The notes under the pieces are model-generated. The model did not search any database. It saw only the letters and a list, made by a program, of their open reading frames with translations, and was not told the DNA's origin. A stretch of DNA of 64,000 nt. Source: Phosphitispora fastidiosa. GTDB taxonomy: Bacteria > Bacillota > Thermincolia > Thermincolales > UBA2595. The stretch lies in assembly GCF_019008365.1 (NCBI RefSeq), contig NZ_JAHHUL010000005.1:62001-126000 (forward strand), written 5' to 3'. The translations under genes were made by a program, and so were the position numbers. This document shows positions 22,982-51,638 of the stretch, in pieces (within the stretch, counting starts at the first letter, position 1; each line of letters opens with the position of its first letter).

Positions 22982-23055
22982 TTTTCCACCTCCTTTCACG
23001 TTACTTTGCATGCCAATATTTTACTACATAACCCATATGTTTCCATACATTTTGG

Positions 23056-24646: not shown

Positions 24647-24665
24647 GCTCAACCACCCCGTTTTC

Positions 24666-25625
24666 TTAGTGATGTTCTTTGCTGTCCAACTCCCTCAACA
24701 CTATATCTGCCATAGCCCTGATGAAGAGTTCTGCGGTGTTCAACGCAGCTGACCTGTGGAAATTAAGCCCAATTGATTGGGCGTGTTTTTTTTGGGCTAT
24801 GTCAATATCATAAAGGGTCTCAATGTGGTCGGAAACAAACCCGATTGGTACTACCATGACATCTCTGGCCCCATTTTCCCGGAGGCGTTCCATGACATCT
24901 TCCACCATGGGGCCCAGCCATTCCCCGCGGCCGCCTCCCTTGCTTTGGTATGCAGTTTGCCAATTGCTGAGATGAAGCTTCTCCACAACCTGCTTCACTG
25001 CGGAATCAAACTGAGCGACATAGGGATCGCCGCCTCTGATATATTCTACAGGCAGTGAATGGGCGCTGAAGATGACCGGAATATCTGCCCTTTGCTCTTC
25101 GGGGAAGTGTTCCAGACCCTGAATAACCCTCTCGGCAGCTGCATCTATAAACAGCCTGTTGGCGTACAGCGGCCCTGCCACCACGGTCTCCGGAAACCTT
25201 GCTCCCTCCGGCAGGCTGCTTTTGATTTCGGAAATTGCCTTGTCCAGTTCATCTTGGTAGGCGCCGGTACTAACTTTTGAGAAAAAAGGTGCAAGGCTGA
25301 CCGCAATAATCTTCTCTACCCCGCTGTCAATCAATTCTGCAAGGCCTTCCCTGATAAAGGGATGCCAATGACACATACCAACTGTCACCCGGTAATTTCT
25401 GTTGCCGGCACAGAGGTATTTCTCCAGTCCCCTGGCCTGTTCCCGGGTTATTTCAGGTAGTGGAGAATGACCACCAATCAACCGGTAACGGGCTTTGACC
25501 TTTTCCACCAGCTCAGGCGGAGGCGTCCTGCCTCCCATTAAGTTTTTCATAAACGGCTCGATAGCTTCAGGGGCATCCGGGCCCCCGAAGGCCATGAGCA
25601 GCACACCTATGGGACTGACACTCAA
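24666..25625 (-). CDS. hemH: Ferrochelatase (coproporphyrin ferrochelatase likely)
   Basis: A 319-residue chelatase with the family features GVLLMAFGGPDAPE at the N-terminus, HSPLPEIT, and the conserved His in IFSAHSLP near residue 184. PIGFVSDHIETLYDID carries the second-site Glu. It inserts Fe2+ into a porphyrin ring in the cytosol; by Firmicute precedent the substrate is coproporphyrin III. It lacks the long C-terminal extension seen in eukaryotic enzymes. The start is a TTG after AGGAGG. It follows hemE by 25 bp and precedes hemY by about 20 bp, in the classical hemEHY order of Bacillus. Confidence 0.94.
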   Translation of the reverse strand: MSVSPIGVLLMAFGGPDAPEAIEPFMKNLMGGRTPPPELVEKVKARYRLIGGHSPLPEITREQARGLEKYLCAGNRNYRVTVGMCHWHPFIREGLAELIDSGVEKIIAVSLAPFFSKVSTGAYQDELDKAISEIKSSLPEGARFPETVVAGPLYANRLFIDAAAERVIQGLEHFPEEQRADIPVIFSAHSLPVEYIRGGDPYVAQFDSAVKQVVEKLHLSNWQTAYQSKGGGRGEWLGPMVEDVMERLRENGARDVMVVPIGFVSDHIETLYDIDIAQKKHAQSIGLNFHRSAALNTAELFIRAMADIVLRELDSKEHH

Positions 25626-25650
25626 CCTAATCCCTCCTCATCTGCGTTCC

Positions 25651-26682
25651 TTAACGGCGGCTGTACTTATGAACTGCCTCCACAAGGGCAATAGCATGTT
25701 CAACAGGAGTTTCCTTATTTATTCCATGGCCCAGGTTAAATATATGTCCGGGTCTGTTACCGGCCATATCAAGTATCTTCCTGACCTTTTCTTCAATTAC
25801 GCTGGGAGGAGCAAACAGTGTAAAGGGGTCAAGATTCCCCTGTACTCCCCGGTCATAACCCACCCGTTTCCAGGCATCATCAAGGTTTATTCTCCAGTCA
25901 AGGCCAATCACATCCCCTCCCGCCGCAGCAACCAGCTCCAGCATTGAGGAGGCATTGTTGGCAAAATGAATTACCGGAACTCCCTCATCCCGCAGTCCGT
26001 CCAGGACATATTTTGAATGTGGCAGCACATACTGCTCATAATCGTCCGGTGAAAGCGCTCCTACCCATGAATCAAACATTTGTACAGCCTGGGCCCCTGC
26101 CTTTATCTGGGCTTTGAGATACTTCAGCAAGACTTCCGAGATTTTTTTCATCAGGGAATCCCATACATCAGGGGCCTGCCACATCATTGACTTGCAATTT
26201 TTGTAGTCCTTGGAACCGCCGCCCTCGATGATGTAGCTGGCTATAGTAAACGGCGCCCCCGAAAAACCAATCAGGGGGACCCTTCCCTCAAGTTCCTTAC
26301 GAATTAAGCGTATGGCATCCAAAACGTATGGAGTCGCCTCTTCAGCTTCAAGAATACGAATCTTATCAACATCGTCTTTGGTCCTGACAGGATTGGAAAT
26401 CACCGGTCCTTCATTTTTGGCAAAAGCCAGTTCAATTCCCATCCCCTCAAGGGGCAGCAAAATATCCGCAAATAGTATTGCGGCATCTACACCCAGCCTG
26501 TTTACCGGCTGCAGGGTAACTTCAGCGGCCAGGTCCGGTGTCTTACACATCGTCAGAAAGTCATATTTCTGTCTGATTTCCATATATTCAGGCAGATAGC
26601 GCCCAGCCTGCCTCATCAGCCAAACCGGAGTACAATCAACCTCTTCTCTCCTGCATGCCTTTAAAAATCGGTCATTCTGCAT
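25651..26682 (-). CDS. hemE: Uroporphyrinogen III decarboxylase
   Basis: A 343-residue enzyme beginning with NDRFLKACRREEVDCTPVWLMRQAGR-like sequence (the MRQAGRYLPEY motif binds the substrate carboxylates) and FADILLPLEGMG, which contains the essential Asp. IGFSGAPFT and DSWVGALSP are further signatures. It decarboxylates the four acetate side chains of uroporphyrinogen III to give coproporphyrinogen III. It is a true HemE, unlike the UroD-fold methyltransferase at 57.6 kb. It follows the marR gene by 70 bp on the same strand, so the repressor and pathway genes appear co-transcribed. Confidence 0.95.
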   Translation of the reverse strand: MQNDRFLKACRREEVDCTPVWLMRQAGRYLPEYMEIRQKYDFLTMCKTPDLAAEVTLQPVNRLGVDAAILFADILLPLEGMGIELAFAKNEGPVISNPVRTKDDVDKIRILEAEEATPYVLDAIRLIRKELEGRVPLIGFSGAPFTIASYIIEGGGSKDYKNCKSMMWQAPDVWDSLMKKISEVLLKYLKAQIKAGAQAVQMFDSWVGALSPDDYEQYVLPHSKYVLDGLRDEGVPVIHFANNASSMLELVAAAGGDVIGLDWRINLDDAWKRVGYDRGVQGNLDPFTLFAPPSVIEEKVRKILDMAGNRPGHIFNLGHGINKETPVEHAIALVEAVHKYSRR

Positions 26683-26752: not shown

Positions 26753-27166
26753 TTATTCCTCAGCCAGGGATTTAAGCAGCAGTTTTATTCCCCTGACAAT
26801 GGTTTCCTGTTCTTCCGGAGACAATCTCTCAAACATCTCTTCAATAACCCTGTCCCTGCGCCTGCCAAGTGTTTCCATAAATTTTCTGCCTTCGGAAGTC
26901 AGCTCCAGCCAAAAAACCCGCCGGTCTTGTTCATCCTGTCTCTTTACTATCCAGCCTTTAATCTCCATCCTCCGGAGAAGTCTGGCAGCAGCTGACAGCT
27001 TACTGTTGATATGGTTTGATATTTCCCCTACAGTCACCGACCCGCGGCCAATTATGCGCAGGACCCGAAACTGCTGTGCGGTAATATCAGCATCCCCGTA
27101 AATCTTAGGTCCCATATAAACCATTACCTGGGGGAAGAGTTCGCTGAATTCCTGATATGGATACAT
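26753..27166 (-). CDS. MarR family transcriptional regulator, first gene of the hem operon
   Basis: A 137-residue winged-helix regulator. The core has TAQQFRVLRIIGRG, SVTVGEISNHINSKLSAAARLLRRME (recognition helix) and the wing DEQDRRVFWLELTSEGRKFM with the conserved D-x-R-D/R pattern. The dimer helices are at both ends. MarR proteins usually repress their own operon and respond to small ligands, redox or metals. Here the upstream DNA holds five TTAC-N4-GTAA half-palindromes in tandem, a likely autoregulatory array. Its position ahead of hemE, hemH and hemY suggests heme or a porphyrin precursor as the signal, as in HrtR-like or HemR-like control, but this is inference. Confidence 0.9.
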   Translation of the reverse strand: MYPYQEFSELFPQVMVYMGPKIYGDADITAQQFRVLRIIGRGSVTVGEISNHINSKLSAAARLLRRMEIKGWIVKRQDEQDRRVFWLELTSEGRKFMETLGRRRDRVIEEMFERLSPEEQETIVRGIKLLLKSLAEE

Positions 27167-27344: not shown

Positions 27345-27356
27345 TTACATATGTAA
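27345..27356. promoter_or_regulatory. Isolated sixth TTAC-N4-GTAA site
   Basis: TTACATATGTAA is a perfect palindrome of the array type, but lies out of the 17-bp register, overlapping the stop codon of the B12 radical SAM gene. It may extend the operator or be chance. Confidence 0.45.
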
Positions 27357-28664
27357 AGATTTTTTCTGCCATGCATTTTGAGCCTTCTTCATTTCCAGAT
27401 GCATGCCAATTTCCTTCATAAAACTGAGCAAATGGGTTGACGGGAAACCTTTCAGAGGTATCCTGGAAATTCTCTTAACCACTCTTCTCAAGCTGTAGAG
27501 CTCGCGGCGCAGCCGGTGGTATTCCTCTTCCCGTCTGAACGCCGTCATTTTGGGATCAGGATGCTCAAATACAGCATTGATACCGGTGAAAGACTCCCAT
27601 CCCTGTCCCGGCAGCAGATAATCCCGGTATTCTTCAAAAAGTTCGGTCCCGGGAAGAGGCATCAGCAGAATCGGATGGATGCCCACATTCAGGGAGTCGG
27701 CAATCTCCAGAGTTCTTCTAAAGCTTTCAATGTCATCATACCTGCCGCCCACTACTACAAAAAGGACAACATATATGCCATGGCTTTGGATGCGCTTAAT
27801 AGCTTCGACCCTGTCCGAGCCCTGCTTACCCGCCGCCCCGAAGTATCTCAACCCGGCCTCAGAATTGCTCTCCCACCCGGCCATTACTGAAAAAAGCCCG
27901 CTTCTCCCTGCCGCAGCAAGTAAGCGGTCACCATAATCCTGCTGAACGGTTTTCAAATCCCCAAATCCGTACCAGCGCTTCTTCGTACCCTGTGACAATT
28001 CCTCAAACAGGTTTAAATTTCTCTTAATGTCCCCACCCCAGATATTGTCATCACCGTTAAACCATATTTTACCCGCACGTGATTCTATCTCTGCAGCAGC
28101 TTCATAAACCGGGCGATAGCGCATTGATTTACCGTAAACGCCGGGTACGCTGCAGAACCTGCAGCTATATGGGCAGCCCCTCATGGTAAAAAAAGCCCGG
28201 AACCGGTAGTCCCTTTTCAGATCACTGTCATAGGGAATAGGAATACCCTCCAGCGCCATCTTCCGGCCCCGGTAAATGCCTTTGAGTTTTCCTGCTTTGG
28301 CATCGCCCAGCAACTCCGGCCAAACAGACTCGGCCTCTCCGATAACCACAGCATCGGCATGACTCGCTGCCTCTCCGGGAAGAATTGTGGGGTGAATCCC
28401 TCCCATTACCACGCGAAGCCCCCTCAGGCGGCATTCATCAGCAAAGCGGTATGCCCAGGGGGCGGTGACTGTCATCGTGCTGACAGCTACAAGGTCGGTG
28501 TTCAGTTGTGCCGGATTAACCGGGGTCTTATTGGCATCAATCAGCTCAACTTCAGCCGACGGGTCAGCCTGAAGGGTAAGCGCCGCCAGATATTCCAGTA
28601 TTGGCGGGAGTACCGGAGACCGTTCCGAAAACGGATACCTGGCAAAAATTATAGTTATTTTCAT
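27345..28664 (-). CDS. B12-binding domain radical SAM protein
   Basis: A 439-residue protein. Residues 1-140 form a cobalamin-binding-type Rossmann domain with VVMGGIHPTILP and VIGEAESVWPEL, though no DxHxxG motif is visible. The radical SAM core starts at about 155 with CPYSCRFC, the CxxxCxxC cluster motif, and includes a GYDGDDNIWG-like stretch (FNGDDNIWGG) and MAGWESNSE. Relatives methylate, rearrange or couple unreactive carbons in hopanoid, bacteriochlorophyll or antibiotic pathways. The start codon overlaps the stop of the LuxE-like gene (ATGA), so the two are coupled and probably act on the same acyl-type substrate. Confidence 0.85.
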   Translation of the reverse strand: MKITIIFARYPFSERSPVLPPILEYLAALTLQADPSAEVELIDANKTPVNPAQLNTDLVAVSTMTVTAPWAYRFADECRLRGLRVVMGGIHPTILPGEAASHADAVVIGEAESVWPELLGDAKAGKLKGIYRGRKMALEGIPIPYDSDLKRDYRFRAFFTMRGCPYSCRFCSVPGVYGKSMRYRPVYEAAAEIESRAGKIWFNGDDNIWGGDIKRNLNLFEELSQGTKKRWYGFGDLKTVQQDYGDRLLAAAGRSGLFSVMAGWESNSEAGLRYFGAAGKQGSDRVEAIKRIQSHGIYVVLFVVVGGRYDDIESFRRTLEIADSLNVGIHPILLMPLPGTELFEEYRDYLLPGQGWESFTGINAVFEHPDPKMTAFRREEEYHRLRRELYSLRRVVKRISRIPLKGFPSTHLLSFMKEIGMHLEMKKAQNAWQKKSLHM

Positions 28665-29848
28665 TGCTCTTTCATCCTTATCATCCCGTCTGCCACTGTG
28701 GAACAGGGGTGCCCGCCGCCAGTGCCCAGGATCCAGTCTTTCAGGGTTCCTCCGGGCAGCTGGAGATCATAACCCGGGACGTTTACGGAACGCCCCAGTA
28801 TTTCAAAGCCCCGTTCTGTTTCGTAACCTATATTGTCGGTCTGCACAGCCAAAACGGTTGCCCTGTTGGTCAGGTCATAATGCCTGATAAGGCCCAGTTC
28901 CCCTTTGGGCATGCGCTGACCGGTCCTAATTCCCACAACTATCGTCCTGGTCCAGGGCAGGTCACATTTATAGCGCTCCCCTGCGGTTATCCCATCCAGG
29001 TAGTCCCGAAGTACATTGTCAAAATAATTTGTCCCACTCTCACCCATGCCCAGAGTATTTACACAGAAGTGTGCAGGGATTCCCAGCAGATCATTGACCA
29101 CCTGGTAAAACCGTTCCCGGGAACAATCGCCAAAAGTGCCCTGATAGCCGCCGCCGTCACATACCCGGCTTCCGGGTGGCAGTGCAAAACGAATTCCCTG
29201 TTCAGAGCATTGGTTGTAAAAAAACACAAATCCTGAAGTAGCCCCCATCACACATATAGGATCGCCCTTTTCCTCTGCCTCCCTGAGGTCTGATATCAGT
29301 TCAGATACTTCCAGACCATTTGGCGTTATATAGTACTTACTGTCTGCCGTCCCAAATTCATTCTTTGCCTGTTCCAGACCATAAGCCATGGGCATACCCG
29401 GAGCTGCCTTAGGAGACGGCACTAAAAGCATTATTCGCATCCGCTCAACATCAGGAAAAACGAACTCCTTGGTAAGCATATAATTACAGCGTTTAATCAT
29501 CTCAAGGCTGTTTTTATCCCTGTATATCTTACCTCTGGCATGTGGATCAGTAGTACCGCTGGTCAAAAGGGAAAGCTCGGTCTCAGACAGAGGAAATGAT
29601 GCAATCACGGCCTCCTTGAATGCATTTGTGGGCAGTGGTGGTATCTCTGACCAGTGAATAACGGCCCCAGGGCTAACCCCCTTGGACCGGCACAGGTTTT
29701 GATATATTTGGTTTCCATAATACTGATGATTAAACTCCTTTAATGCCAGATTATTAAACATCTCTTCATCATGATAGCCGATACCCTTTTCTATAAAATC
29801 GAGAATCTCTCTGTCCAGATCTTCTCTGGCCACAGGATTTTCTCCCAT
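28661..29848 (-). CDS. LuxE-like acyl-protein synthetase / adenylate-forming enzyme
   Basis: A 395-residue member of the LuxE family in the adenylate-forming superfamily. The ATP-binding P-loop is LLTSGTTDPHARG near residues 94-106, and SRVCDGGGYQG, LGMGESGTNYFDN and GELGLIRHYDL are further segments of the acyl-adenylate fold. LuxE activates a fatty acid as acyl-AMP and carries it as an acyl-enzyme to the LuxC reductase. No luxC, luxD or luxAB is present here, so the role is not bioluminescence. It lies between the cytochrome biogenesis genes and a B12 radical SAM gene; it could activate a carboxylate for that enzyme. Confidence 0.82.
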   Translation of the reverse strand: MGENPVAREDLDREILDFIEKGIGYHDEEMFNNLALKEFNHQYYGNQIYQNLCRSKGVSPGAVIHWSEIPPLPTNAFKEAVIASFPLSETELSLLTSGTTDPHARGKIYRDKNSLEMIKRCNYMLTKEFVFPDVERMRIMLLVPSPKAAPGMPMAYGLEQAKNEFGTADSKYYITPNGLEVSELISDLREAEEKGDPICVMGATSGFVFFYNQCSEQGIRFALPPGSRVCDGGGYQGTFGDCSRERFYQVVNDLLGIPAHFCVNTLGMGESGTNYFDNVLRDYLDGITAGERYKCDLPWTRTIVVGIRTGQRMPKGELGLIRHYDLTNRATVLAVQTDNIGYETERGFEILGRSVNVPGYDLQLPGGTLKDWILGTGGGHPCSTVADGMIRMKEQ

Positions 29849-29863
29849 GCTGCAATCCCCCTT

Positions 29864-30730
29864 TTAGTCTGACCCCTGCAGGTATATGCTATTGGCATCA
29901 ACAAACCTGTCGTGAATAGTTGGGTACAGATACGGCGCACCATAAAATGAAAACACCACAACAGCAATTACAGCTATATGCAGCCAGGAAGCCAGCTTCC
30001 CTTTGATGCCGGTTAATCTTAAATGCAGGTAAAGTCCATAAACCAGCCAGCTGATCAGAGACCACGTTTCGATAGGATCCCAGCCCCAGTAACGGCCCCA
30101 TGACTTATAAGCCCATACCGCTCCTGAGGCAATCATAATGCCAATCATCAGAAACGCAAAAAGGGTAATCCGGTGGCCCATGTAGTCCAGCCTGTCCAAA
30201 TCCGGCAGTTTTTCCAGTAAAGGATTGACTCTGCCTCCTGCTTCCTGCCGCCCCTTAATCAGGTAGGCAATACTCAAACCAGCGGCTACCAGGACTCCGC
30301 CAAGAGCCAGAGTGGCAAACAGCATGTGAATTCCCAGCCAGTAGGTGAAATAAGTCTTGGGCAGTTCAGTAAGCTCAGTTGAACTCATCACACCGATCCC
30401 GGTCATCAGGGTCACCACAGGCAGGACTACAGTCCCGGCAATGGTAACCTTTGGTTTCCAAAATTGAATAACATTATAAAATAAAAGGACCCCTCCGGCA
30501 TATATGGTGTACACTTCATAAGCCCCAATACTGGGGACATGTCCGGTTTGTATCCAGCGCAGGACCAAGGCTGCCGCCATCGGCAAAATAGCAATATGGG
30601 CACAGGTAACCCCGTAGTTCTGCAGCTGTTCCTTTTTAAAACTCAGGGCGCTGAAAAAACAAACTGTGGCCAAAAAACAAAAGCTGACTGCTAACCATAA
30701 CAATACCAACTGAGTCTCTACACTACTCAT
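29864..30730 (-). CDS. resC: Cytochrome c biogenesis protein ResC/CcsA
   Basis: A 288-residue integral membrane protein with about eight helices. The tryptophan-rich heme-handling motif WGRYWGWDPIETWSL lies near residues 208-222, flanked by conserved His residues. With ResB it forms the system II cytochrome c synthetase that exports heme and joins it to CxxCH motifs outside the membrane. It follows resB by 21 bp and precedes the LuxE-like gene by 15 bp. Its place just after the giant cytochrome gene suggests a dedicated maturation machine. Confidence 0.93.
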   Translation of the reverse strand: MSSVETQLVLLWLAVSFCFLATVCFFSALSFKKEQLQNYGVTCAHIAILPMAAALVLRWIQTGHVPSIGAYEVYTIYAGGVLLFYNVIQFWKPKVTIAGTVVLPVVTLMTGIGVMSSTELTELPKTYFTYWLGIHMLFATLALGGVLVAAGLSIAYLIKGRQEAGGRVNPLLEKLPDLDRLDYMGHRITLFAFLMIGIMIASGAVWAYKSWGRYWGWDPIETWSLISWLVYGLYLHLRLTGIKGKLASWLHIAVIAVVVFSFYGAPYLYPTIHDRFVDANSIYLQGSD

Positions 30731-30751
30731 AATATTTCTCCTTTTCCGGTC

Positions 30752-31864
30752 TTACATACTTCGGCTCTTCACAGCGGGAAATGGCCGGCTTAACATGACG
30801 ATTGAGAGTCCGGAAATGGCCATAATAATTCCGGCAAATACCGGGTTAGCTCCCGGGTCATAAACCGCCAGCAATTCCGTCCAGGGTTTTACCTGCTCAA
30901 AAGTCAGGGTGTAACCGCCAAGTTGGACAGTTCCTCCCAGAGGCACGATTTCCTGTGCCATAATCTCATTATTATTGCTCGCCGTAATAAACAGTCCGGG
31001 GTTTTCCAACCGGTTTGACCTGTTAATCGATTTTGCGGCTTTTCCGTCAACAGCTATATCAGTGTAGAAGTTCACGGACAAAAGGTTGGGTAAAGAAGCT
31101 ATCTGCAGGTTTTTTGCGGAATAAGACCTGATACCATCTGAAAACTCTTTGGTCTGTAATGGTATAGTAATCTTCTCTGTTTTCCCCTCACTGCTCCTGG
31201 CGCTAATTATTACCGCATAGCCATAGGCATTGGGAAACATATACAGGCCCCGGTAGGAAAACTGTTCCAAATCAGCCACACCGTAACCCCTGTCAGGACC
31301 GGTTTTATCAGATATGGTCAGGTGTGATAATATCTCTTTGATTCCCCCTGAATTATTAAATGTCATCTCTTGTTTGTCCAGAGTAAAGCTGATATCCGGT
31401 TCGCCGGCGCGAATGTTGATATCCGCTGCCAGGCCGCGGGTAGACTGCTCCTCAGCAATCAATGCCCGGTAAGGTATCTGTTTGGTGTCACCTTCAATCA
31501 GTTTAATCGTACAATATGTCCGGTAAGAACCGCTAACCAGGGTCCCAACAATTATCACTGCCAAGCCGGCGTGAAATACCACCGAACCCCAACGGCTCAA
31601 AACTCTGCCTTTTGATCTAAGCTGCCTGATGAACCTGTCTGCTGTACATACTGCAAGATTAACCAACAGGACAGCCGCTAATGCCTTAAACCACCAATAG
31701 CGGAATACGTTTCCGGTCTGGGGAACAGTTGAAGGGTCCCAGCGGCCCATCAGTTCAAAGGCATCCACAGTAACTGCAGCAGAGATGATGAAAATTAACA
31801 CTATTGCCAGAACCTTGGATTTGGCTAAAGTCCATACTTTTACCAGATGCCGCTTTACAGCCAT
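30752..31864 (-). CDS. resB: Cytochrome c biogenesis protein ResB
   Basis: A 370-residue ResB-type protein. There are three N-terminal membrane helices (about 15-35, 60-80 and 90-115), a large extracytoplasmic beta-rich domain (about 115-335) and a C-terminal helix (FAGIIMAISGLSIVML). The first extracytoplasmic segment has GSYRTYCTIKLIEGD. ResB is the partner of ResC/CcsA and helps hold reduced apocytochrome during heme attachment. It starts after a GGAGGGG site. No ResA-type thioredoxin or CcdA gene is visible in this window. Confidence 0.92.
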   Translation of the reverse strand: MAVKRHLVKVWTLAKSKVLAIVLIFIISAAVTVDAFELMGRWDPSTVPQTGNVFRYWWFKALAAVLLVNLAVCTADRFIRQLRSKGRVLSRWGSVVFHAGLAVIIVGTLVSGSYRTYCTIKLIEGDTKQIPYRALIAEEQSTRGLAADINIRAGEPDISFTLDKQEMTFNNSGGIKEILSHLTISDKTGPDRGYGVADLEQFSYRGLYMFPNAYGYAVIISARSSEGKTEKITIPLQTKEFSDGIRSYSAKNLQIASLPNLLSVNFYTDIAVDGKAAKSINRSNRLENPGLFITASNNNEIMAQEIVPLGGTVQLGGYTLTFEQVKPWTELLAVYDPGANPVFAGIIMAISGLSIVMLSRPFPAVKSRSM

Positions 31865-31899
31865 ATTCCCCTCCAGTCCACTATTTCTGCAGCCACAGA

Positions 31900-33108
31900 C
31901 TACTCCTGTCCCGAACCGGCATAAACATCTTCTGTAACTTCTCCAATAGCCTCGATATCATATCTCGGGGTGTTTTTCGGACCTTTCCTGGCATTGTTTA
32001 TTTTGACCCACTTATCAAGGACCAGCTCTTTTTTTAGCTGGGTAGCATTACCCAGGTAGTCTACAGGAAAGGAATTTTCCAAAGAGATGAATTCTTTGTG
32101 TTTTTTCAGTACTTTTTCATCGGAAGGACGGAAGCCGAACTTGGCAAAGCTATTCTGGGAATCTGCGGTAAACAGAAAATCAATAAACTCGTTGATCAGC
32201 GCTTCATATTCCTCATTCTTGATTTTTTTCATCTTATACACTGTCAGGTCTGCCATCACCGTATTTGGCGGGATAACCATTTCCACTGAATCATCTTTTC
32301 TGGCTGTAGTAAGGGCCCTGCTCTCAAACCAGAGGAGAACATCACCGACTTCATGTTCCAGAAACTGAATTCCGGCTCCGAGTGAAGTACTCGAATTATA
32401 TACAGTATTTTGCTCCACCTTCCGGAGTAATTCCAGGGCAGCCTGCTTGTCCCTGCGACCGGTTTCCACCTCAGAACCCTTGAGCGCTGAACCATAGATA
32501 CCGTAAACAGGCCAGAAACCTGCTGCATTTATTGGATTGGGGTGAACGACCATTACCTCCGGTCGCGTCAGATCCTCATAAGTATAAATTCCCTTGGGAT
32601 TTCCCTGGCGCACCAGAAAAACAACAGGGGTACTGTATACAACGCCACGGTTGGCTTCCTTCTGCCACCTGGTGGTTTCATAACCTCTTCTGATAGAGTC
32701 ATGAGCTGAAGTCGAAATAAGTACATGAGCCGATTCCCCATTAACCTTGGTGGCAATCTTATCAAAGTCCAGTGTGGAATAACCGGCCTCAAACCTTACC
32801 TGCTCTCCTGTTTTCTGATACCAGTATTCTTTAAAAGCAGGTATGATTTCATTAAAGAGTGGTTTATTGCTGACACAGGTAAAGGCCAGATAAATGGTTT
32901 TGACACCGCCGCCTTTAGAGGTGGGGTCAACATAGTCCCCGGCAATTGTATTGCCATCGTCCCCGATGATAATATCCCTCTGTCCAACCCTGTACTTCTC
33001 TTTTCCGGGAGAGGCTGCCTGGCCCTCATGCTGCCACGCGTAAACCGCCATTGCGGTCAGCAGGGTGGTTACAAGAATCATTCTAATGATAACAGACCTT
33101 TTTTTCAT
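31900..33108 (-). CDS. Extracytoplasmic solute-binding protein, sulfate/molybdate-type fold
   Basis: A 402-residue exported protein with a signal peptide (residues 1-32). The core has IYLAFTCVSNKPLFNEIIPAFKEYW-type N-terminal lobe, VNGESAHVLISTSAHD, RQGNPKGIYTYEDL and VVHPNPINAAGFWPVYGIYG, the pattern of Sbp/ModA-like periplasmic-binding proteins that trap sulfate, thiosulfate, molybdate or related oxyanions. No ABC permease or ATPase lies beside it. Instead it sits between the giant cytochrome (23 bp) and ResB (35 bp), so it may capture an oxyanion for the cytochrome system or work with a transporter elsewhere. GGAGG precedes the ATG. Confidence 0.82.
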   Translation of the reverse strand: MKKRSVIIRMILVTTLLTAMAVYAWQHEGQAASPGKEKYRVGQRDIIIGDDGNTIAGDYVDPTSKGGGVKTIYLAFTCVSNKPLFNEIIPAFKEYWYQKTGEQVRFEAGYSTLDFDKIATKVNGESAHVLISTSAHDSIRRGYETTRWQKEANRGVVYSTPVVFLVRQGNPKGIYTYEDLTRPEVMVVHPNPINAAGFWPVYGIYGSALKGSEVETGRRDKQAALELLRKVEQNTVYNSSTSLGAGIQFLEHEVGDVLLWFESRALTTARKDDSVEMVIPPNTVMADLTVYKMKKIKNEEYEALINEFIDFLFTADSQNSFAKFGFRPSDEKVLKKHKEFISLENSFPVDYLGNATQLKKELVLDKWVKINNARKGPKNTPRYDIEAIGEVTEDVYAGSGQE

Positions 33109-33131
33109 GGATATACCTCCTCACGGAGTTT

Positions 33132-36100
33132 TTAAAAGGCTTTAACCGGCTGGCCAAGGTAACAGTGGTCACATCCGGAAGTATGTGCCGGATAGGTAGC
33201 GCCATGATAATGGCAGCTGGCACACGCCCTGCCAAAATCATCTGCCATCGGCGGATTGCTGTCCCCATGGTCCTCCCGGTGACACCCCAGGCATCCCTGA
33301 TGGAAATTGTACAGAGTTCCGGCATGGCAGCTCTGGCAAAAACCAAGAAACTCAGTGTTATTGGCCAAGCCGGTACCGGAAATTTTCCCCGGTGTCTGCC
33401 CATTGGGATTATCCTTCAGGTGATAGAGACTTTCTGAACCGTGCAGGTCGTGGCAGTCATAGCACTGCAAGGTCGTATTGCCCCGGGTATATGGGTTCTT
33501 AATAGTCCCGTTAACACGCCCAATGCCATAATCCGCCTGGTAGGTCTGATAACCGCCGGCGCCGCCATGGATATCACCGGTATAGGTAGAACCAATGTTC
33601 CTGGTTATCGGACCCAGGTCCACACCCTGGGGCGCCGCACCATCGTGGCACTTATTACAGTATGGCTTCATATCAACCGTCTTTGGGATACTGATACTGG
33701 TTTCTGAACCCATTTTCTGGTTAACAACATCATCCCACCTTGAGTAAACAAAGTTCCATACTCCTAAGTTAACATTGTAGCCATCAGAGTTTTCCCCATA
33801 GCCCTTCCAGAAAATGTTGAAGCTATACAGGTTTGCCGGGTCTTCATTGATGGCAAACCTAAACATCTGGTAATTGTATTCCCCATCATCCTGATTGGGG
33901 GTCAGATAATAGTCAGTGGTGAAATACTCACTATCATCACTTAGGACTGCAGAGAATTCATCAGATGCCGGGCTGCCAGGCGCTGACGGCGTAGGTTCAG
34001 CGCTGCTCTGCCACATGCCAAACCCTGCAGAATTCGCATCATACACGCTGATCGCAGTACCTTTGTCTGCCTGTAACTTAATATAGTTTGTATTTAATGA
34101 ATAATGGCCTTCAGGAGGCTGCTCCAGGAAATCTTCCGGATAATAATGGGGTTGATATGGTATTTCCTGATATACCGATTCAGCTATCCTGACATCTGAC
34201 CCGCCGAATAACCTGGCCCACAACCCCTGCAGCCCATCCAGTATCCCGCCCAGGAATCCCTTAAGCCTGGTAAGGATGCCGGATTTGTCCTCATTTGAAC
34301 GGTATTCAGCGATATCATTGGCATCACCATGAATTCGGGTGTTCCATTCTGCCACGTATTCCTGCAGCTCCCTGGGATATTCCCCTAACGAATCAGGCCA
34401 TTTAGACATATCCATATCCCGGAAAGGCATAGGATAAGTTTTGGCATACTGATATTCCTTATAATACTGCCACGGCTTTAAGACGAAAGTCCTGGTCATG
34501 CCCGGCGCGGGAGGCGGCAGAGCCTTAAAAGTCACGGTAAGCTCATCACCTGTATCCATTGCTACCATCTTGTCATCTATTTTCTTAACCAGTGGTAGCA
34601 CATCTCCGTAACGGGTGAACCTACCTTCATGAACCAGGGTTTTGTCTGTTACTATATCATAATCGTGATATGGCGATGGAAACTTGGTATACTTTGCCAT
34701 TCCGCGAAACTGCAGCTGTGCTGTCAATGGTTTCAGGCTGGTTTTTTTGGCAATGGAATCAGGGGTCGTATCGACACCAATAAAATCAAAGTGTGGTCTG
34801 TACATGCCTCTGAGCCTGACTATATATTTTGTCGTCCCTTTGGGAAATTTCCCTGTCAGGTCAATAGCTACCGGCTTGGTATAACCGGAAAAGTGCTTAA
34901 TTTTTTCAGATTTCCAGGTGCCATCAGGCTGCAGAATTTCTAATAATCTCGCGGCTGGTTTAATCCCCTTTTTAATGTTTTCCACCCGCTGCGCCCGTTC
35001 CCGGGCATCGGCATACTCAGTCCAGCCAATGGCTACCAACTTAATGTTCCTGGCGCCACTTAAATCTCCCAGGTCAAAGATAAACTCATTATCATCAAGC
35101 AGTGTCCCACTGGCGTGCCGGTTGTCAATTTTACTTACCTCTGCAGTAATATCAATAGGTTTGGACCTTGGGCCGCCATTATATGTGGGATTGTTAATAT
35201 AGGTGGCTCTTTTAACAGGTTTAATATCCTTGGCATAACTATGAATAACCGGCGGGTTGTCCTCCCGCTGAAAATCATTTAAAGCTAATCTGGTATCCTC
35301 CGGATGGTCTACAGCCTGCAGGACCAGGTTGTCTATAAAATCGACTTCGTCCCGTTCTGTTTTGATTTTAATTGTATATAGACCGTCTTTTTCCTGCAAT
35401 TTACCCCACGGAACAATCACCGGCAGGTCCGGAATCGGCACCGAATACTGGCCCGGGGCCTTCTCCAGTCCCACATTGGAACTGGCGAGGTCAGTAATAA
35501 ACTCAAACCCTTCCCCATTCCAGGTATACAGGACAGGACATGAACTGGGCGGCCCGTAATGAGTAATTGATTTTGCCGTTGACCAGGCAGATTCAGTTCC
35601 CCAGTTATCCCGGGATTTTACCCTGAAATAATAAGTAATCACCGCATCATAATCACATGATTGGGCAATATCCCAGCTGGTGGTACTTATCCAGCCGGAA
35701 TTGCCAATCGTATTGGTAAAGTTACTGGTGGTGCTCACCTGCATATAATACTCAACTGTATCACCCGGATCAGGGTCATAAACCGTACTCCAGACAGAGC
35801 CTAATGTAAAATTAAATTCATCAGGTGCCGAATCAGTGACAGTCGAGATAGTCGGTACTCCGGGAGATCTGCTTGTCATTATGGTGAAATTATCACTGGT
35901 AGTTGTGTTGCCGCGCAGATCCTGTGATGTCAGCCGGTAAGTATATTCCGTTCCCGCAACCAGTCCGCTCAGGTGAACACTGTGAGAAGTGCCCGGCGTG
36001 CTGTTGGTTCCTTCCGAATATGCAAAACCATAAACAGCATAATTAACAGTATCATTATACTCTACCCACCGGGAAGCCTTTTCATTGGTTGTCCAGGTGA

Positions 36101-39100
36101 CATCGAACGAAGCGCCTGTTGAATTAACAATTGACGGCCCGGAATTTATCACCGGAGGGGTGCTGTCGAGTACCCGGTCATCTGAAAGCACATAGTTTCC
36201 TGACGGGTCAACAGCATAAACCCGGTAATGATAGTTGGTATATAGCTGCAGTCCCGACATGGCTCCGGTAAAGGAAGTAGCCAGATAATTTTTGTTAACC
36301 TTGGTCCCGTAAGCAGTGGTAGGACCATATTCCAAATAACCCGATACCTTTTCATTGGTAGCCCAGATAATGCTGGCAGTGGTTTCATCCATAGCAGATA
36401 CATAGGGATTTGTGGTAAATGCCGGTTCTTGTCCATCATGCTTGGCTCTAACCCGCAGGTAGACCTTCCCGGAATCATCCACATATTCAGGTATGTTGCT
36501 GGTAAGAGAGTAAAGGCTGTACCTGTTATCGGGGTCTACCAGCCGTTCTGTGGCTGTATTCAAATGTGGTTCATGGCAGTTAAAACAATCCAGCTTGGTT
36601 CCCTGAGCCGTTTGTTCCGCGGCATCAACACTGTGATGTGACAGCGGATCGGAACTGGCGGTGAACTTTTCATAGATGTTTACGCCATGGACGGAATTAT
36701 CCGGGTCACTGTGACATCCCAGCCCCCCGCCAAAGCATGTAGTGCTCTGCCCCATCTGGAGCTGCTTGGGGAAGGGAATTCCGGAGGCATCAGCTTTACC
36801 GTGAGGAGTATGGCAGTTGCCGCAATAGCCCTCCGAAACCCACGGGTCAACAGCCCGCACTTCCAGTTCCACATAATCGGTATTCAGTGAATAATGATTA
36901 ACCGGATTAGCAGTAAGTCTCTTTGAATTGGAAGAGATGGCAGAACTCTTATTTGCCGGACGGTCAGTTGTAAAACCGCCTGCAAGGTTGTCCAGCTTGA
37001 CTGCCACCCAGTCAAATACCCTCGTACCCAGTAACTTAAACCTTTGCAGGATACCGGACTGGCCCCGGTCGTAAGTCCGGATTTCTTTGTTATTTTGAAC
37101 GGAATTGTCCCCAGCTTTATGGACTCTGGTATTCCACTCTTTAACGTATTCCTTCAGTTCCTGGGGATATTCCCCCAGCGAAACAGGGTACAGTGACATG
37201 TCCATGTCCCTGAAAGGCATAGGCTCAACCTTGGCCTCCGATAATTCCTTATAATATCCCCAGGGCTTTAAGACAAAGGACCTGGTCATCCCGGCAGCCG
37301 GAGGGGGAAGGGCCTTAAACGATACTGTAAGTTCATCACCTGTGTCCATAACTACCAGCTTATCATCAATCTGCCGGACCAGGGGTAGAACGTCACCATA
37401 CCTGGTGAAGCTGCCCTCATGAGTCCAGAGGTTGAAGCTCCTGCCATCATAATAATCAAAGTATGGAGACGGAAATTTTATGTAGGATGCAGGGGTGGCA
37501 TAATTGAGCTCAGCGCTATCCAATCTAAGAGGTGTTACAGTTGTATCTGCCTGCGGGGTAGTGTCAACCCCGATAAAATCCAGATGGGGCCGGTATAATC
37601 CCCTGAGCCTGACCACATATTCTTTGGTACCCTCTGCAAATTTTCCGGTAAGATCGATTACAGCGGTCTTGGTATACCCTGGGATGTGCTTTATTTCCTG
37701 AGACTTCCATGTACCGTCCGGCTGGAATACTTCAACGTAGCTCTTCGCCGTTTGCAGTCCCTCTCCGGCCGTCTGCACCCTTAGCTCCCTGTCAGCAGCG
37801 GTGGCAAACTCGGTCCAGCCAACCACCACAAGCTTGACTTCCTGAGCATCACTCAGGTCCCCAAGTTCGAGAGTAAATTGGTTATCATCAAATAACTTGC
37901 CGACAGCGTGTCTATTGTCAATCCTGCTGACAAGCTCTGTCACATCTATGGGAGCGCCGGCGTCGCTGCCGCTCCAGGTAGGATTATTGACATAAGTGAC
38001 CCTTTTAACCGGCTTAAGATTTTCACTGTAGGTATACAGCTTATATGGTTCCGCTCTCCGGACAAAGTCATTGAGGCCGATACGGGTGTCTACAGGATGG
38101 TCTACTGCTTCCAGGACCAGGTTGTCAATAAAGTCTACTTCATTTTGTTCGTTCTTAATTTTAAGGACATAATACCCGTCTTTTTCTTTAAGAAGGTCAT
38201 CCGAAATTGTGACCTGTTCATCCGGATAAGGGGTCTTGTATTTGCCCGGGGACATCTCAAGCCCAACATCTGACCCTGCCACAATATCAGTAACATATTC
38301 AAATTTCTCACCATTCCAGGTATATAAAATTGGGCAGGAGTTGACCCAAGTCGTGAAGCTGTCGGTTGACCAGTCTGATACCGAGCCGTAGCTGTCTTTG
38401 GCCCTCACTCTCCAGTACCAGGTATTGGAAGTATTGACCCCCCCCGAATGGGTTACGGTAGTGGACCAGCTGGTGGAACTGAGATTAGGCTCTTCTGAAT
38501 AAGAACTGAAATCTGCAGACTTGCTGATTTGAATGTCATAGGTTAATGGCTGACTGTCAAGGTCAGGAACACCGTTCCAGTTAAAGGTCACACTGAAATT
38601 AAAGACACCGTCCTGTTCCAGATCCCCCTCCGGCGTAAGCACCGGAGAACCACACCGGGCATCAAAAGAACTCGTTTCAACTGTCTCATTGCCCAGCCTG
38701 TCCACAGTAGTAATCTTATAATAATATGTTTGGCCGGCCACAAGGTCTGACAGCCTCACTGAATGGGAGGTCCTGTACCCGGCAACAGTAAGCTGTGTCC
38801 CATAAGCAGTTGTTGTGCCGTAATCTACTGTGGTTGTAGCCTCCTCATCTGTAGTCCAGACTATATCAGCCCATTTCGATGTCGTATTGAACCGGGGCCC
38901 CCAGCTCGATACCGCCGGGCCTGTCCCGTCGTGCTTGGCCCGGGCCAGAATATATATATCATTATCTTCATCAAGATATCTGTCGAAGTCTGATGTCCTC
39001 TGCCATGTAAATGTCCCGGGGGAACCAAGTTGCTGTGATGCCAGGGCCTCCCAGCCGGGTGTGTTTTCATTCCAGACAAACAGTTCAGTGGGGTAGCCTG

Positions 39101-40367
39101 TCGTGGGTTCACCGTAACCCACCCATTTCCCGCTAAGCTGCCTGATGTCATCAATTTCCTGGGTGACATGAAATTTGTAAACCTGATAGTTGTACTCATC
39201 CTGAGCCGCAGCAAGGTCAGTAACCCAGAATGCCGAATCTATAACAGAGATGCTGTTTTTGGAACCGACACCGGCCGGAGTACCCGGCTCTTCTGGAACC
39301 GGCTGCTCTTCAACAGATCCGGAGGCCTGCCAAATTTCGGTGCCATCTGTACCGGTTGTATAAAGATACTGCATCGCCATGGGGTCAATATTGCCATGAG
39401 GAGTATTATTATATATTTCTATCCCACGATAAGAATAATTATCAGGACGAACAACTGACTCGTCATCATGACATGTGGTACAAAGCGCATTTCCCTCAGC
39501 TCTTCGATAGTACGAGACACCTGTTTTCCCATGGGGTTCGTGGCAGTTCATGCAGAGTGTGGCCTCATATTCGGTTCCGCTGTATGTAGTCGTGGCCACA
39601 GTCGAGGAGGTCTTAGAACCATGGTAGGTCGCATTAAACACCGCACTCCCCGCATAGCCGCCGATACCATCAGTATGGCAGCCAAAACAAACGGAATTGT
39701 TATTCCCGGTTACCTGGTACACCACTCCACTGGGACCGGTTATCGTATTCCGTAAAAGCATATCATAAGGCGAACCGTGGGGCTGGTGGCAGCGGGCACA
39801 TTTAATCCCGGTCCCCGAGGCCGGCGGGTCCATATTTATATCATGTGGAGTATAGACAAAATCTGCCAGAATATCCCCGCCAGGCAGACTGCTCCCGCCG
39901 CCGTGACATGCGCCACATACGGAATTCCCTGAGGAATAAGCGGCCTCACCTACCGCTAACAGCCCCGCAGTCCCGCCAGCTGACTTTTCGTTTGCCAGGT
40001 GAGGATCATGGCAGTTGCTGCATTTTTGGGTGCCTGTAGGTACAGGGTGCAAAGAACCGGTACCTGAGTATACCGAGGACCCGATGGTTTCCTCACCAAA
40101 CTCCCCCCTGATATTGGGGCTTGAGTTGCTTCCATCATGGCAGGAATAACAGGTCTCTTTCTGGCTGGACTGAAGCACCAGATACGACCCAAAAGAGCTG
40201 TGAGTGGAATGGCATTTATGACACAGTGAGTTAACCTCATAGTTGCCATGTGGATTTACAGCAGGCTCCGCCGCAGCTTCAAACCCGCCTGCTAAAATAT
40301 AAATCAAACCACATGCTATCAGGGAAAATACGGTTATAATGAGTATCGTTTTTCTTGAAATGCCCAT
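33132..40367 (-). CDS. Giant multiheme c-type cytochrome with FnIII domains and a duplicated module
   Basis: A 2411-residue exported protein with an N-terminal signal/anchor (residues 5-30). Fifteen canonical CXXCH heme sites lie in three groups: eight at about 49-320, two in the middle (CGNCH near 1180 and CFNCH near 1260) and five near the C-terminus (2236-2390). A CX6CH site lies in the middle group and a CxxCY near the end. Between them are about five fibronectin type III-like domains (about 475-670, 1300-1600) and two copies of a 410-residue beta-rich module (about 675-1085 and 1607-2015), each starting SCP(I/V)LYTWNGE. It should carry electrons across or outside the wall. It opens an operon with a binding protein and resBC. 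Confidence 0.92.
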   Translation of the reverse strand: MGISRKTILIITVFSLIACGLIYILAGGFEAAAEPAVNPHGNYEVNSLCHKCHSTHSSFGSYLVLQSSQKETCYSCHDGSNSSPNIRGEFGEETIGSSVYSGTGSLHPVPTGTQKCSNCHDPHLANEKSAGGTAGLLAVGEAAYSSGNSVCGACHGGGSSLPGGDILADFVYTPHDINMDPPASGTGIKCARCHQPHGSPYDMLLRNTITGPSGVVYQVTGNNNSVCFGCHTDGIGGYAGSAVFNATYHGSKTSSTVATTTYSGTEYEATLCMNCHEPHGKTGVSYYRRAEGNALCTTCHDDESVVRPDNYSYRGIEIYNNTPHGNIDPMAMQYLYTTGTDGTEIWQASGSVEEQPVPEEPGTPAGVGSKNSISVIDSAFWVTDLAAAQDEYNYQVYKFHVTQEIDDIRQLSGKWVGYGEPTTGYPTELFVWNENTPGWEALASQQLGSPGTFTWQRTSDFDRYLDEDNDIYILARAKHDGTGPAVSSWGPRFNTTSKWADIVWTTDEEATTTVDYGTTTAYGTQLTVAGYRTSHSVRLSDLVAGQTYYYKITTVDRLGNETVETSSFDARCGSPVLTPEGDLEQDGVFNFSVTFNWNGVPDLDSQPLTYDIQISKSADFSSYSEEPNLSSTSWSTTVTHSGGVNTSNTWYWRVRAKDSYGSVSDWSTDSFTTWVNSCPILYTWNGEKFEYVTDIVAGSDVGLEMSPGKYKTPYPDEQVTISDDLLKEKDGYYVLKIKNEQNEVDFIDNLVLEAVDHPVDTRIGLNDFVRRAEPYKLYTYSENLKPVKRVTYVNNPTWSGSDAGAPIDVTELVSRIDNRHAVGKLFDDNQFTLELGDLSDAQEVKLVVVGWTEFATAADRELRVQTAGEGLQTAKSYVEVFQPDGTWKSQEIKHIPGYTKTAVIDLTGKFAEGTKEYVVRLRGLYRPHLDFIGVDTTPQADTTVTPLRLDSAELNYATPASYIKFPSPYFDYYDGRSFNLWTHEGSFTRYGDVLPLVRQIDDKLVVMDTGDELTVSFKALPPPAAGMTRSFVLKPWGYYKELSEAKVEPMPFRDMDMSLYPVSLGEYPQELKEYVKEWNTRVHKAGDNSVQNNKEIRTYDRGQSGILQRFKLLGTRVFDWVAVKLDNLAGGFTTDRPANKSSAISSNSKRLTANPVNHYSLNTDYVELEVRAVDPWVSEGYCGNCHTPHGKADASGIPFPKQLQMGQSTTCFGGGLGCHSDPDNSVHGVNIYEKFTASSDPLSHHSVDAAEQTAQGTKLDCFNCHEPHLNTATERLVDPDNRYSLYSLTSNIPEYVDDSGKVYLRVRAKHDGQEPAFTTNPYVSAMDETTASIIWATNEKVSGYLEYGPTTAYGTKVNKNYLATSFTGAMSGLQLYTNYHYRVYAVDPSGNYVLSDDRVLDSTPPVINSGPSIVNSTGASFDVTWTTNEKASRWVEYNDTVNYAVYGFAYSEGTNSTPGTSHSVHLSGLVAGTEYTYRLTSQDLRGNTTTSDNFTIMTSRSPGVPTISTVTDSAPDEFNFTLGSVWSTVYDPDPGDTVEYYMQVSTTSNFTNTIGNSGWISTTSWDIAQSCDYDAVITYYFRVKSRDNWGTESAWSTAKSITHYGPPSSCPVLYTWNGEGFEFITDLASSNVGLEKAPGQYSVPIPDLPVIVPWGKLQEKDGLYTIKIKTERDEVDFIDNLVLQAVDHPEDTRLALNDFQREDNPPVIHSYAKDIKPVKRATYINNPTYNGGPRSKPIDITAEVSKIDNRHASGTLLDDNEFIFDLGDLSGARNIKLVAIGWTEYADARERAQRVENIKKGIKPAARLLEILQPDGTWKSEKIKHFSGYTKPVAIDLTGKFPKGTTKYIVRLRGMYRPHFDFIGVDTTPDSIAKKTSLKPLTAQLQFRGMAKYTKFPSPYHDYDIVTDKTLVHEGRFTRYGDVLPLVKKIDDKMVAMDTGDELTVTFKALPPPAPGMTRTFVLKPWQYYKEYQYAKTYPMPFRDMDMSKWPDSLGEYPRELQEYVAEWNTRIHGDANDIAEYRSNEDKSGILTRLKGFLGGILDGLQGLWARLFGGSDVRIAESVYQEIPYQPHYYPEDFLEQPPEGHYSLNTNYIKLQADKGTAISVYDANSAGFGMWQSSAEPTPSAPGSPASDEFSAVLSDDSEYFTTDYYLTPNQDDGEYNYQMFRFAINEDPANLYSFNIFWKGYGENSDGYNVNLGVWNFVYSRWDDVVNQKMGSETSISIPKTVDMKPYCNKCHDGAAPQGVDLGPITRNIGSTYTGDIHGGAGGYQTYQADYGIGRVNGTIKNPYTRGNTTLQCYDCHDLHGSESLYHLKDNPNGQTPGKISGTGLANNTEFLGFCQSCHAGTLYNFHQGCLGCHREDHGDSNPPMADDFGRACASCHYHGATYPAHTSGCDHCYLGQPVKAF

Positions 40368-46177: not shown

Positions 46178-46912
46178 CTACAAACGGTCTACGGCGCTCA
46201 TCAGCCCATGTATCAGCGCCTGAGGCCTGGGCGGGCAGCCGGGAATATAAACGTCTACCGGCAAAATATTATTCACTCCGCCTGAACTGGCGTAACTCTT
46301 GCCGCAAATCCCCCCGCTGCAGGCACACGTACCTACAGCCACCACCAACTTAGGGGCAGGCGCTGCCTTAAAGGTTTTCCGCACAGCAATTTCAAGATTT
46401 CTGGTGACCACACCGGTAACCATTAAAATATCGGCATGCCTGGGTGAGGCCGCGAAATTGAAACCAAGGCGCTGGATATCGTAAACAGGTCCGGTCAAAG
46501 CCCCCATTTCCCAATCACAGGCGTTGCATGAACCTGAATCAAGGTGGCGGATATGTACAGAGCCGCCAAATATTTTGCTGATTTTTTCCCTGCATACTTT
46601 TTCTGTCAGTTCATAGGTTGTTCCTAAGGAGACAGCGCCACCGGCACAGGCATCCTGGCAGTAGCCACAGAAAATACATTTTTTAGGATCAATTGACCAG
46701 TAACCTGCCAAGTCGTTTAGCTTAGTTTCGCCGGTGTCATTTAGCTTAATAGCTCCGGTTGGGCACTTTTCAGCACATTTACCACATTTAAGACAGCTGT
46801 TCTCCTGCCATTCCGGAAGCCCTCTAAAGCCCTGTGGAGCAAAATCCTTTTCTTCAGGGTATCCGGTGGTGATCACCCCGGTCTGAAAACTTTTTCGAAA
46901 AATCCTTAGCAT
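46178..46912 (-). CDS. Fused ferredoxin and small subunit of group 4 [NiFe]-hydrogenase (HyfH-HyfI)
   Basis: A 244-residue cytosolic-side subunit. Residues 36-95 form a two-cluster ferredoxin domain with CLKCGKCAEKC (C40, C43, C46, C50) and CIFCGYCQDAC (C79, C82, C85, C89). Residues 110-244 form the NuoB/HyfI-like small subunit, whose proximal 4Fe-4S cluster would be held by C129, C132, C196 and C226. In E. coli Hyf and Hyc these are separate polypeptides. It should relay electrons between ferredoxin or another donor and the nickel-iron site of the large subunit. It is the last gene of the operon, 11 bp after the large subunit gene. Confidence 0.85.
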   Translation of the reverse strand: MLRIFRKSFQTGVITTGYPEEKDFAPQGFRGLPEWQENSCLKCGKCAEKCPTGAIKLNDTGETKLNDLAGYWSIDPKKCIFCGYCQDACAGGAVSLGTTYELTEKVCREKISKIFGGSVHIRHLDSGSCNACDWEMGALTGPVYDIQRLGFNFAASPRHADILMVTGVVTRNLEIAVRKTFKAAPAPKLVVAVGTCACSGGICGKSYASSGGVNNILPVDVYIPGCPPRPQALIHGLMSAVDRL

Positions 46913-46923
46913 GTATTTCCCCC

Positions 46924-48537: not shown

Positions 48538-48539
48538 GA

Positions 48540-51627: not shown

Positions 51628-51638
51628 TGGATTTCCCC

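Follow-up and report, generated by a model that had tools for sequence, protein, structure and literature searches.

A giant multiheme cytochrome operon in Phosphitispora fastidiosa with its own ResB-ResC genes and a possible two-enzyme tailoring module

Introduction

The 64,000-nucleotide stretch of Phosphitispora fastidiosa DNA analysed here (contig NZ_JAHHUL010000005.1; the window in what follows) contains six consecutive minus-strand genes. They encode a giant multiheme cytochrome (P0001), a secreted binding protein (P0002), ResB-like and ResC-like heme-handling proteins (P0003 and P0004), a LuxE-like acyl-protein synthetase (P0005) and a B12-binding radical S-adenosylmethionine (SAM) enzyme (P0006). 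Why should a cytochrome and its maturation proteins be encoded together with an acyl-activating enzyme and a radical SAM protein? Some Thermincola bacteria move electrons onto minerals or electrodes, and our reading of the locus belongs in that setting: we propose that the operon is dedicated to assembling a single giant multiheme cytochrome of a Gram-positive (Thermincola) electron-transfer system and that it is equipped with a two-enzyme tailoring module. We give this proposal a probability of about 0.45, somewhat short of even. On the sequence evidence, the LuxE-like and radical SAM proteins most likely load a carboxylic acid onto a cysteine and modify the acid there, in the service of cytochrome maturation or function.

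Results

An initial annotation of the window could not make sense of the LuxE-like/radical SAM pair in this operon. That judgement was too strong, for the pair recurs in clusters with cytochromes, ResB and ResC across the phylum. An alignment search for the LuxE type, which covered 398 genomes of the phylum, found matches in 17. Three of these genomes are canonical, with a single GCSxAVEEFI or GCSxAVDQLI end motif and an adjoining LuxC, and the other 14 make up a cytochrome-type group; LuxC was present in 3/3 of the former and in 0/14 of the latter. To judge from these loci, the LuxE-like protein is usually partnered by a B12 radical SAM enzyme, which need not come from the same subfamily each time. 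In eight genomes (the window genome G000, which is 4.09 Mb in 239 contigs, and G001, G002, G003, G006, G007, G008 and G009) paralogous loci encode a B12 radical SAM protein with a LuxE-like domain fused behind it, and ResB, ResC and cytochromes are also present at most of these fusion loci, the largest motif count in a cytochrome being 73 CXXCH. The fusion adjoins a 34-heme cytochrome in G001 and G002, with ResB and ResC further along. Unfused genes keep similar company: a cluster in G113 comprises an 11-heme cytochrome, LuxE, ResB, ResC, a 112-residue CopD-like protein and the radical SAM gene, and in G013 and G059 LuxE lies with ResB, ResC and cytochromes of 28 and 49 hemes.

The radical SAM proteins of the fusions, of G000 contig C17 and of G097, G113 and G146 score 413-450 bits against BchE and 143-174 bits against the next family, HpnR; HpnR and HpnJ are the second-rank matches of the fused form. 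Scores for this BchE-like family overall are 408-458 bits (413.6 for the fusion), below the BchE cut-off of 481 (TIGR02026). A census at an E-value of 1e-60 found the family in 30 of the 398 genomes, four of which have true BchE at 795-807 bits; we take these four to be heliobacteria, the phototrophs of this phylum. In an IQ-TREE phylogeny the 35 BchE-like sequences form one clade (support 94/87) that is sister to the four BchE sequences (node 100/99). ResB and ResC both lie within 2.6 kb at 27 of 33 clade loci examined; these 27 come from 11 families, and at 25 of them a cytochrome carrying five or more CXXCH motifs lies within 4.5 kb. Neither association occurs at any of eight outgroup loci. 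Many clade loci sit directly beside ResC, twelve of them with gaps of 4-75 bp. As a yardstick, we estimate that a gene placed at random in a 4.1-Mb genome would fall within one of five 20-kb ResB-ResC neighbourhoods in about 2-3% of cases. Of the six exceptions, one is at a contig end (L155), two are beside LuxE only (L071 and L072), two beside exporter-like genes (L135 and L138) and one is without obvious context (L133). The recurrent family thus shares with BchE its architecture of B12-binding and radical SAM domains and its place as a sister clade, but it scores below the cut-off, is linked to ResB/ResC and cytochromes, and has non-phototrophic hosts; P0006, also a B12 radical SAM protein, stands further from BchE than this family does.

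Two side observations concern the neighbours of the BchE-like gene. At L135 (6247-10759) and L138 (7155-11667) it adjoins an HlyD-like protein and lookalikes of an ATP-binding cassette (ABC) ATPase and an ABC-2 permease, with no cytochrome nearby, which hints that its product may be exported. A protein of about 112 residues lies beside it at L071 (7180-7521) and L074 (8509-8847), both CopD-like by a weak Pfam match, and at L072 (14453-14788).

P0005 belongs to the LuxE family by Pfam and falls far under the NCBIfam LCFA_lig_LuxE equivalog cut-off (42.8 against 550 bits). Its C-terminus, HPCSTVADGMIRMKEQ, holds the Cys382 motif in one copy (Table 1). The motif is present in three copies in G002 and in four to six in the fusions, where the unit is 15 residues long, such as HGAPCSTVADGMIKA. 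In bioluminescence LuxE of P. phosphoreum the acyl-transfer site is Cys364 (PMC8301110, citing Soly and Meighen 1991). Across the six core codons within arrays, synonymous divergence (pS) is 0.52 and non-synonymous divergence (pN) 0.04, values drawn from few arrays and open to bias from recent duplication; by this measure the tail repeats are diverged as DNA yet held constant as protein, under purifying selection. Seven array-type genomes that were checked have 18-61 paired-CXXCH matches, and three canonical-LuxE genomes have 0-8. The likeness to the LuxE of the LuxC-LuxD-LuxE fatty acid reductase of bioluminescence extends to the Pfam family, the adenylating fold class and a C-terminal acyl-accepting cysteine in a homologous motif; the differences are the missing LuxC, a B12 radical SAM enzyme as partner, in many cases on the same polypeptide, and the tandem multiplication of the cysteine site in relatives. 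The CSTVADGM repeats were also considered as a precursor of a ribosomally synthesised and post-translationally modified peptide, a reading made less likely by their homology to the acyl-cysteine tail of LuxE.

A structure model of the fusion (mean predicted local distance difference test, pLDDT, 77) contains a B12 radical SAM domain that resembles AprD4 (Z 30.1), CysS (Z 27.3) and MgmA (Z 26.1), followed by a PaaK-like adenylating domain (Z 24.2). The array tail is modelled at low confidence, with short helices, and is probably flexible. Crystal structures of CysS and TokK contain pantetheinylated (thioester) substrates. They set a precedent for B12 radical SAM enzymes that act on a carboxylate bound to a carrier, and CysS is among the closest solved folds, but the substrates there are carried on pantetheine, whereas here we propose the cysteine tail of the LuxE-like domain as the carrier.

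The maturation genes of the window are those of system II (ResB-ResC or CcsBA): P0003 and P0004 are members of the respective families and adjoin the cytochrome that they presumably mature. P0004 reads WGRYWGWDP at its WWD motif and lies under the CcsB equivalog cut-off (TIGR03144; 152.6 against 187.6 bits). The operon departs from system II as known in that its own copy is joined with genes for a LuxE-like and a radical SAM protein, neither of which belongs to system II. CcmF2 offers a parallel, being a maturation factor that serves specifically a giant multiheme cytochrome: it is found beside the giant MHC-B cytochromes of anaerobic methanotrophic (ANME) archaea (PMC9012536), but that system is archaeal, belongs to System I rather than II and is without LuxE-like or radical SAM genes. 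Separate ResB/ResC sets are present on contigs C5, C6 and C17 of G000, each beside a different multiheme cytochrome. Two of the giant cytochromes of G000, one of 2599 residues with 73 CXXCH (L031, 6166-13965) and one of 3060 residues with 42 CXXCH (L033, 10542-19724), are each followed by their own ResB-ResC. In L031, L033, L034, L140, L152 and others, NHL beta-propeller proteins are found in alternation with multiheme cytochromes, and a gene for about 160-185 residues, of no clear family, adjoins ResB/ResC in some clusters (L032, 9217-9705; L150, 13034-13510; L152, 4390-4944).

In P0001 the CXXCH motifs fall into three groups (8, 2 and 5) with long non-heme stretches between them, and Pfam finds paired-CXXCH and cytochrome c7 matches together with two that resemble fn3 and the purple acid phosphatase N-terminal domain. 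The CX6CH site is kept as CFG[GDE]GLGCH in every P0001 homologue examined and is possibly a sixteenth, non-canonical heme site. An export signal can be recognised by eye as an N-terminal hydrophobic stretch followed by EAAAEP; with its many CXXCH motifs, P0001 thus has the sequence characteristics of an extracellular multiheme cytochrome. Lipoprotein anchoring through Cys19 was considered and dropped, as that cysteine is not conserved in G003. The non-heme domain that occurs twice gave a model of middling quality (pLDDT 57) with a moderately confident core and no firm fold match; the fold search returned a weak APC10/jelly-roll resemblance. A second giant paralogue of P0001, with 16 CXXCH, is found downstream of hemY in both congeners of the window organism (L039, 7150-14157; L167, 1-4284), at a position where the window has a subtilase gene (21641-23011).

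P0002 is nearest to the sulfate-binding protein 1sbp (E 1.2e-28) and below the TIGR00971 subfamily cut-off (112.4 against 155.5 bits). Residues Ser130, Gly131 and Trp192 of 1sbp, which we take to be its sulfate ligands, align with Ala, Ala and Phe in P0002. The operon contains no transporter genes, and no CysT permease over its cut-off was found in G000. Identity to the other homologues in the phylum is about 30%, and the neighbours of those homologues look ABC-like, as judged from gene size; the cytochrome-linked form is found only in the genus of the window organism and in G003, which represents one related genus. P0002 probably acts outside the cell together with P0001. The description of P0002 as an oxyanion-type binding protein without a transporter accordingly stands as regards the missing transporter genes and the sulfate-binding-like sequence, but is weakened as regards the ligand by the subfamily score and the lost sulfate-ligating residues.

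The six open reading frames extend over 27345-40367 and are separated by 23, 35, 21 and 15 bp, with a 4-bp overlap at the last junction, just as first annotated, and their Pfam assignments, all over the family cut-offs, agree with the identities given at that time. A purine-rich Shine-Dalgarno-like stretch precedes most of the six starts. Intrinsic terminators were no more numerous than in shuffled sequence, and promoters somewhat more so (34 against 22). The synteny of the six genes, whose loss in relatives had been named beforehand as evidence against the grouping, is conserved in three further genomes. Two of these are of the same genus and have all six genes together (L024/L040 and L025/L039; LuxE 85-92% identical). 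In the third, G003, from another genus of the family (L026/L041), the pairs LuxE-radical SAM, ResB-ResC and cytochrome-binding protein are permuted yet together. The MarR-type neighbour is kept in G001 and G002, and hemE-hemH-hemY lie downstream of the operon in 4/4 genomes that have the six-gene set. To the right of the operon is a cluster of Complex I/Mrp-like membrane genes (window 46178-53675).

Table 1. Features of the operon and its downstream neighbours, in window coordinates
Feature	Coordinates	Strand	Remarks
P0001, giant multiheme cytochrome, 2411 aa	33132..40367	-	15 CXXCH + 1 CX6CH
P0001 N-terminal group, residues 49-300	39468..40223	-	8 CXXCH
P0001 non-heme domain, copy 1, ~510 aa	36828..38390	-	54% identity with copy 2
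P0001 middle group, residues 1182-1264	36573..36824	-	CXXCH at residues 1182 and 1261, either side of CX6CH
P0001 CX6CH site, residue 1211	36711..36737	-	CFGGGLGCH, non-canonical
P0001 non-heme domain, copy 2, ~510 aa	33963..35600	-	
P0001 C-terminal group, residues 2237-2386	33210..33659	-	5 CXXCH
P0002, secreted binding protein, sulfate-binding-protein-like	31900..33108	-	Pfam SBP_bac_11
P0003, ResB-like heme delivery/ligation protein	30752..31864	-	Pfam ResB (PF05140), 71.3 bits
P0004, ResC/CcsB-like heme handling protein	29864..30730	-	Pfam Cytochrom_C_asm (PF01578), 114.7 bits; WWD-type motif (WGRYWGWDPIETWSLISW)
P0005, LuxE-like acyl-protein synthetase, 395 aa	28661..29848	-	Pfam PF04443, 55.8 bits against a gathering score of 24.9
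P0005 Cys382, in C-terminal motif HPCSTVADGM	28703..28705	-	aligns with canonical LuxE tail GCSxAVEEFI
P0006, B12-binding radical SAM enzyme, 439 aa	27345..28664	-	Pfam B12-binding 43.8 bits, Radical_SAM 41.9 bits
P0006 CX3CX2C cluster motif	28152..28175	-	Cys164, 168, 171
MarR-type regulator	26753..27166	-	178 bp downstream of operon
hemE, hemH (ferrochelatase) and amine-oxidase-fold gene read as hemY	23225..26682	-	heme synthesis genes

Discussion

Our proposal of a dedicated assembly operon can be put as a series of steps. P0001 would be exported, and ResB-ResC, acting as their families are known to act, would deliver and attach its 15-16 hemes outside the membrane. The LuxE-like protein in the cytoplasm, by its fold and its tail cysteine, would adenylate a carboxylic acid and keep it as a thioester on that cysteine, and the B12 radical SAM enzyme, to which it is fused in relatives, may then methylate or oxidise the tethered molecule after the manner of CysS and TokK. 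The linkage to ResB/ResC suggests that the product would be used in the maturation or function of the cytochrome of the same operon. The initial annotation had the last two genes making a lipid or cofactor; we would now say that they act as a pair and that, since relatives have both activities in one protein, a small carboxylic molecule is most likely what they produce or alter.

Among single candidates for the substrate a tetrapyrrole propionate leads, in view of the sister position of the fused radical SAM to BchE and of the heme-attachment genes beside it; the main alternative would be a fatty or an aromatic acid. BchE acts by oxidation on Mg-protoporphyrin monomethyl ester, at the side chain bearing the esterified propionate (PMC13142503), which makes the candidate a coherent one. 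One may go further and suppose that the LuxE type turns the propionate of a porphyrin or heme into a cysteine thioester, in place of the methyl ester that BchE needs, that the BchE-like radical SAM modifies it, and that the ResB-ResC specific to the operon then places the modified heme in giant extracellular cytochromes. We regard this bolder version as doubtful.

Several observations weigh against the assembly-operon proposal or narrow it. P0006 itself lies outside the BchE-like clade: it scores 36.8 bits against BchE (TIGR02026), its best match is TIGR04013 at 80 bits, below the cut-off, and its relatives outside the genus of the window organism and G003 are at most 40% identical. No ResB, ResC or cytochrome was found beside P0006 relatives in 16 short loci that were checked. 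The LuxE copy of G003 is without the tail cysteine, though the G003 fusion protein carries the array; this loss and the different radical SAM in the window operon count against any simple tetrapyrrole version. G097 and G146 have LuxE and the radical SAM in adjacent positions, with a protein of about 112 residues (CopD-like in G097) and no cytochrome nearby, and the LuxE of G013 and G059 has no neighbouring radical SAM. Finally G005, a genome of the same family that is rich in multiheme cytochromes, has a P0001 homologue (55%) without ResB/ResC, binding protein, LuxE or radical SAM, so the module is not generally required by a cytochrome of this type.

The pair could instead serve lipid or acyl modification, with the LuxE-like protein activating a fatty acid, the radical SAM enzyme methylating or desaturating the chain, and the product placed on the cytochrome or made into an anchoring lipid of the membrane or wall. 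Bioluminescence LuxE works on long-chain fatty acids (PMC8301110); P0006 weakly matches TIGR04072, a family of B12 radical SAM enzymes in lipid biosynthesis, and HpnR and HpnJ come second for the fused protein. We nevertheless think a lipid product unlikely, since the recurrent radical SAM is much closer to BchE than to HpnR and the genomic partner of the pair is ResB/ResC, not lipid genes. A modification of the apoprotein, in which the radical SAM C-methylates or otherwise alters cytochrome residues before export, much as MgmA does with methyl-coenzyme M reductase (MCR), and LuxE adds an acyl group, would fit the position of the genes next to their putative protein substrate, and the closest solved sequence relative is 9ccb, titled MCR glutamine methylase MgmA. 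The BchE-like copies of G013 and G059, which lie amid HlyD/ABC exporter features with no cytochrome (as read from open reading frames), are better suited by a small molecule, and no conserved target peptide was identified; apoprotein modification is therefore rather improbable.

Those same exporter-like neighbours could be taken to mean that the pair supplies a small electron shuttle or some other metabolite for secretion and is a mere fellow traveller of electron-transfer islands, as could the pairs of G097 and G146, which are away from cytochromes in genomes that nonetheless bear them. The tight position directly beside ResC at many loci is stricter than island membership predicts, and we consider such a passenger role quite improbable. 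Least credible to us is the reading first offered for the operon, the reduction of oxyanions outside the cell by a system whose binding protein hands them to the cytochrome. It draws on the resemblance of P0002 to sulfate-binding proteins such as 1sbp and on the oxyanions that can be reduced by OcwA of T. potens (PMC7911101), but an oxyanion-reducing role is not supported because the sulfate-ligand residues are replaced and the cytochrome linkage is narrow. P0001 has no known oxyanion reductase active site, and both LuxE and the radical SAM enzyme would be left unexplained. The electron-conduit half of that first suggestion fares better, for in the same-genus genomes a fused radical SAM-LuxE paralogue adjoins a cluster that matches ImdcA-CwcA of the Thermincola ImdcA-PdcA-CwcA-OcwA chain (PMC7911101) by gene order and heme counts. 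P0001 is another, far larger cytochrome than those of that chain, and the literature that we searched, with incomplete coverage, described neither the tailoring module nor any link of multiheme cytochromes with LuxE-like or BchE-like proteins.

No explanation has so far been given for the way in which Gram-positive bacteria assemble cytochromes that carry dozens of hemes, or for the presence of several ResB-ResC pairs in one genome. The recurrent link of ResB/ResC and a giant cytochrome to a B12 radical SAM enzyme and a LuxE-like protein points to an undescribed step of maturation or tailoring. An adenylating enzyme with an acyl-carrier tail of several cysteines would be new biochemistry, and if heme is what is tailored, that multiplied tail would represent a novel type of covalent carrier arm. 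Should the tailoring step prove real, the cytochromes produced in E. coli for some electrochemical studies may have been incompletely matured.

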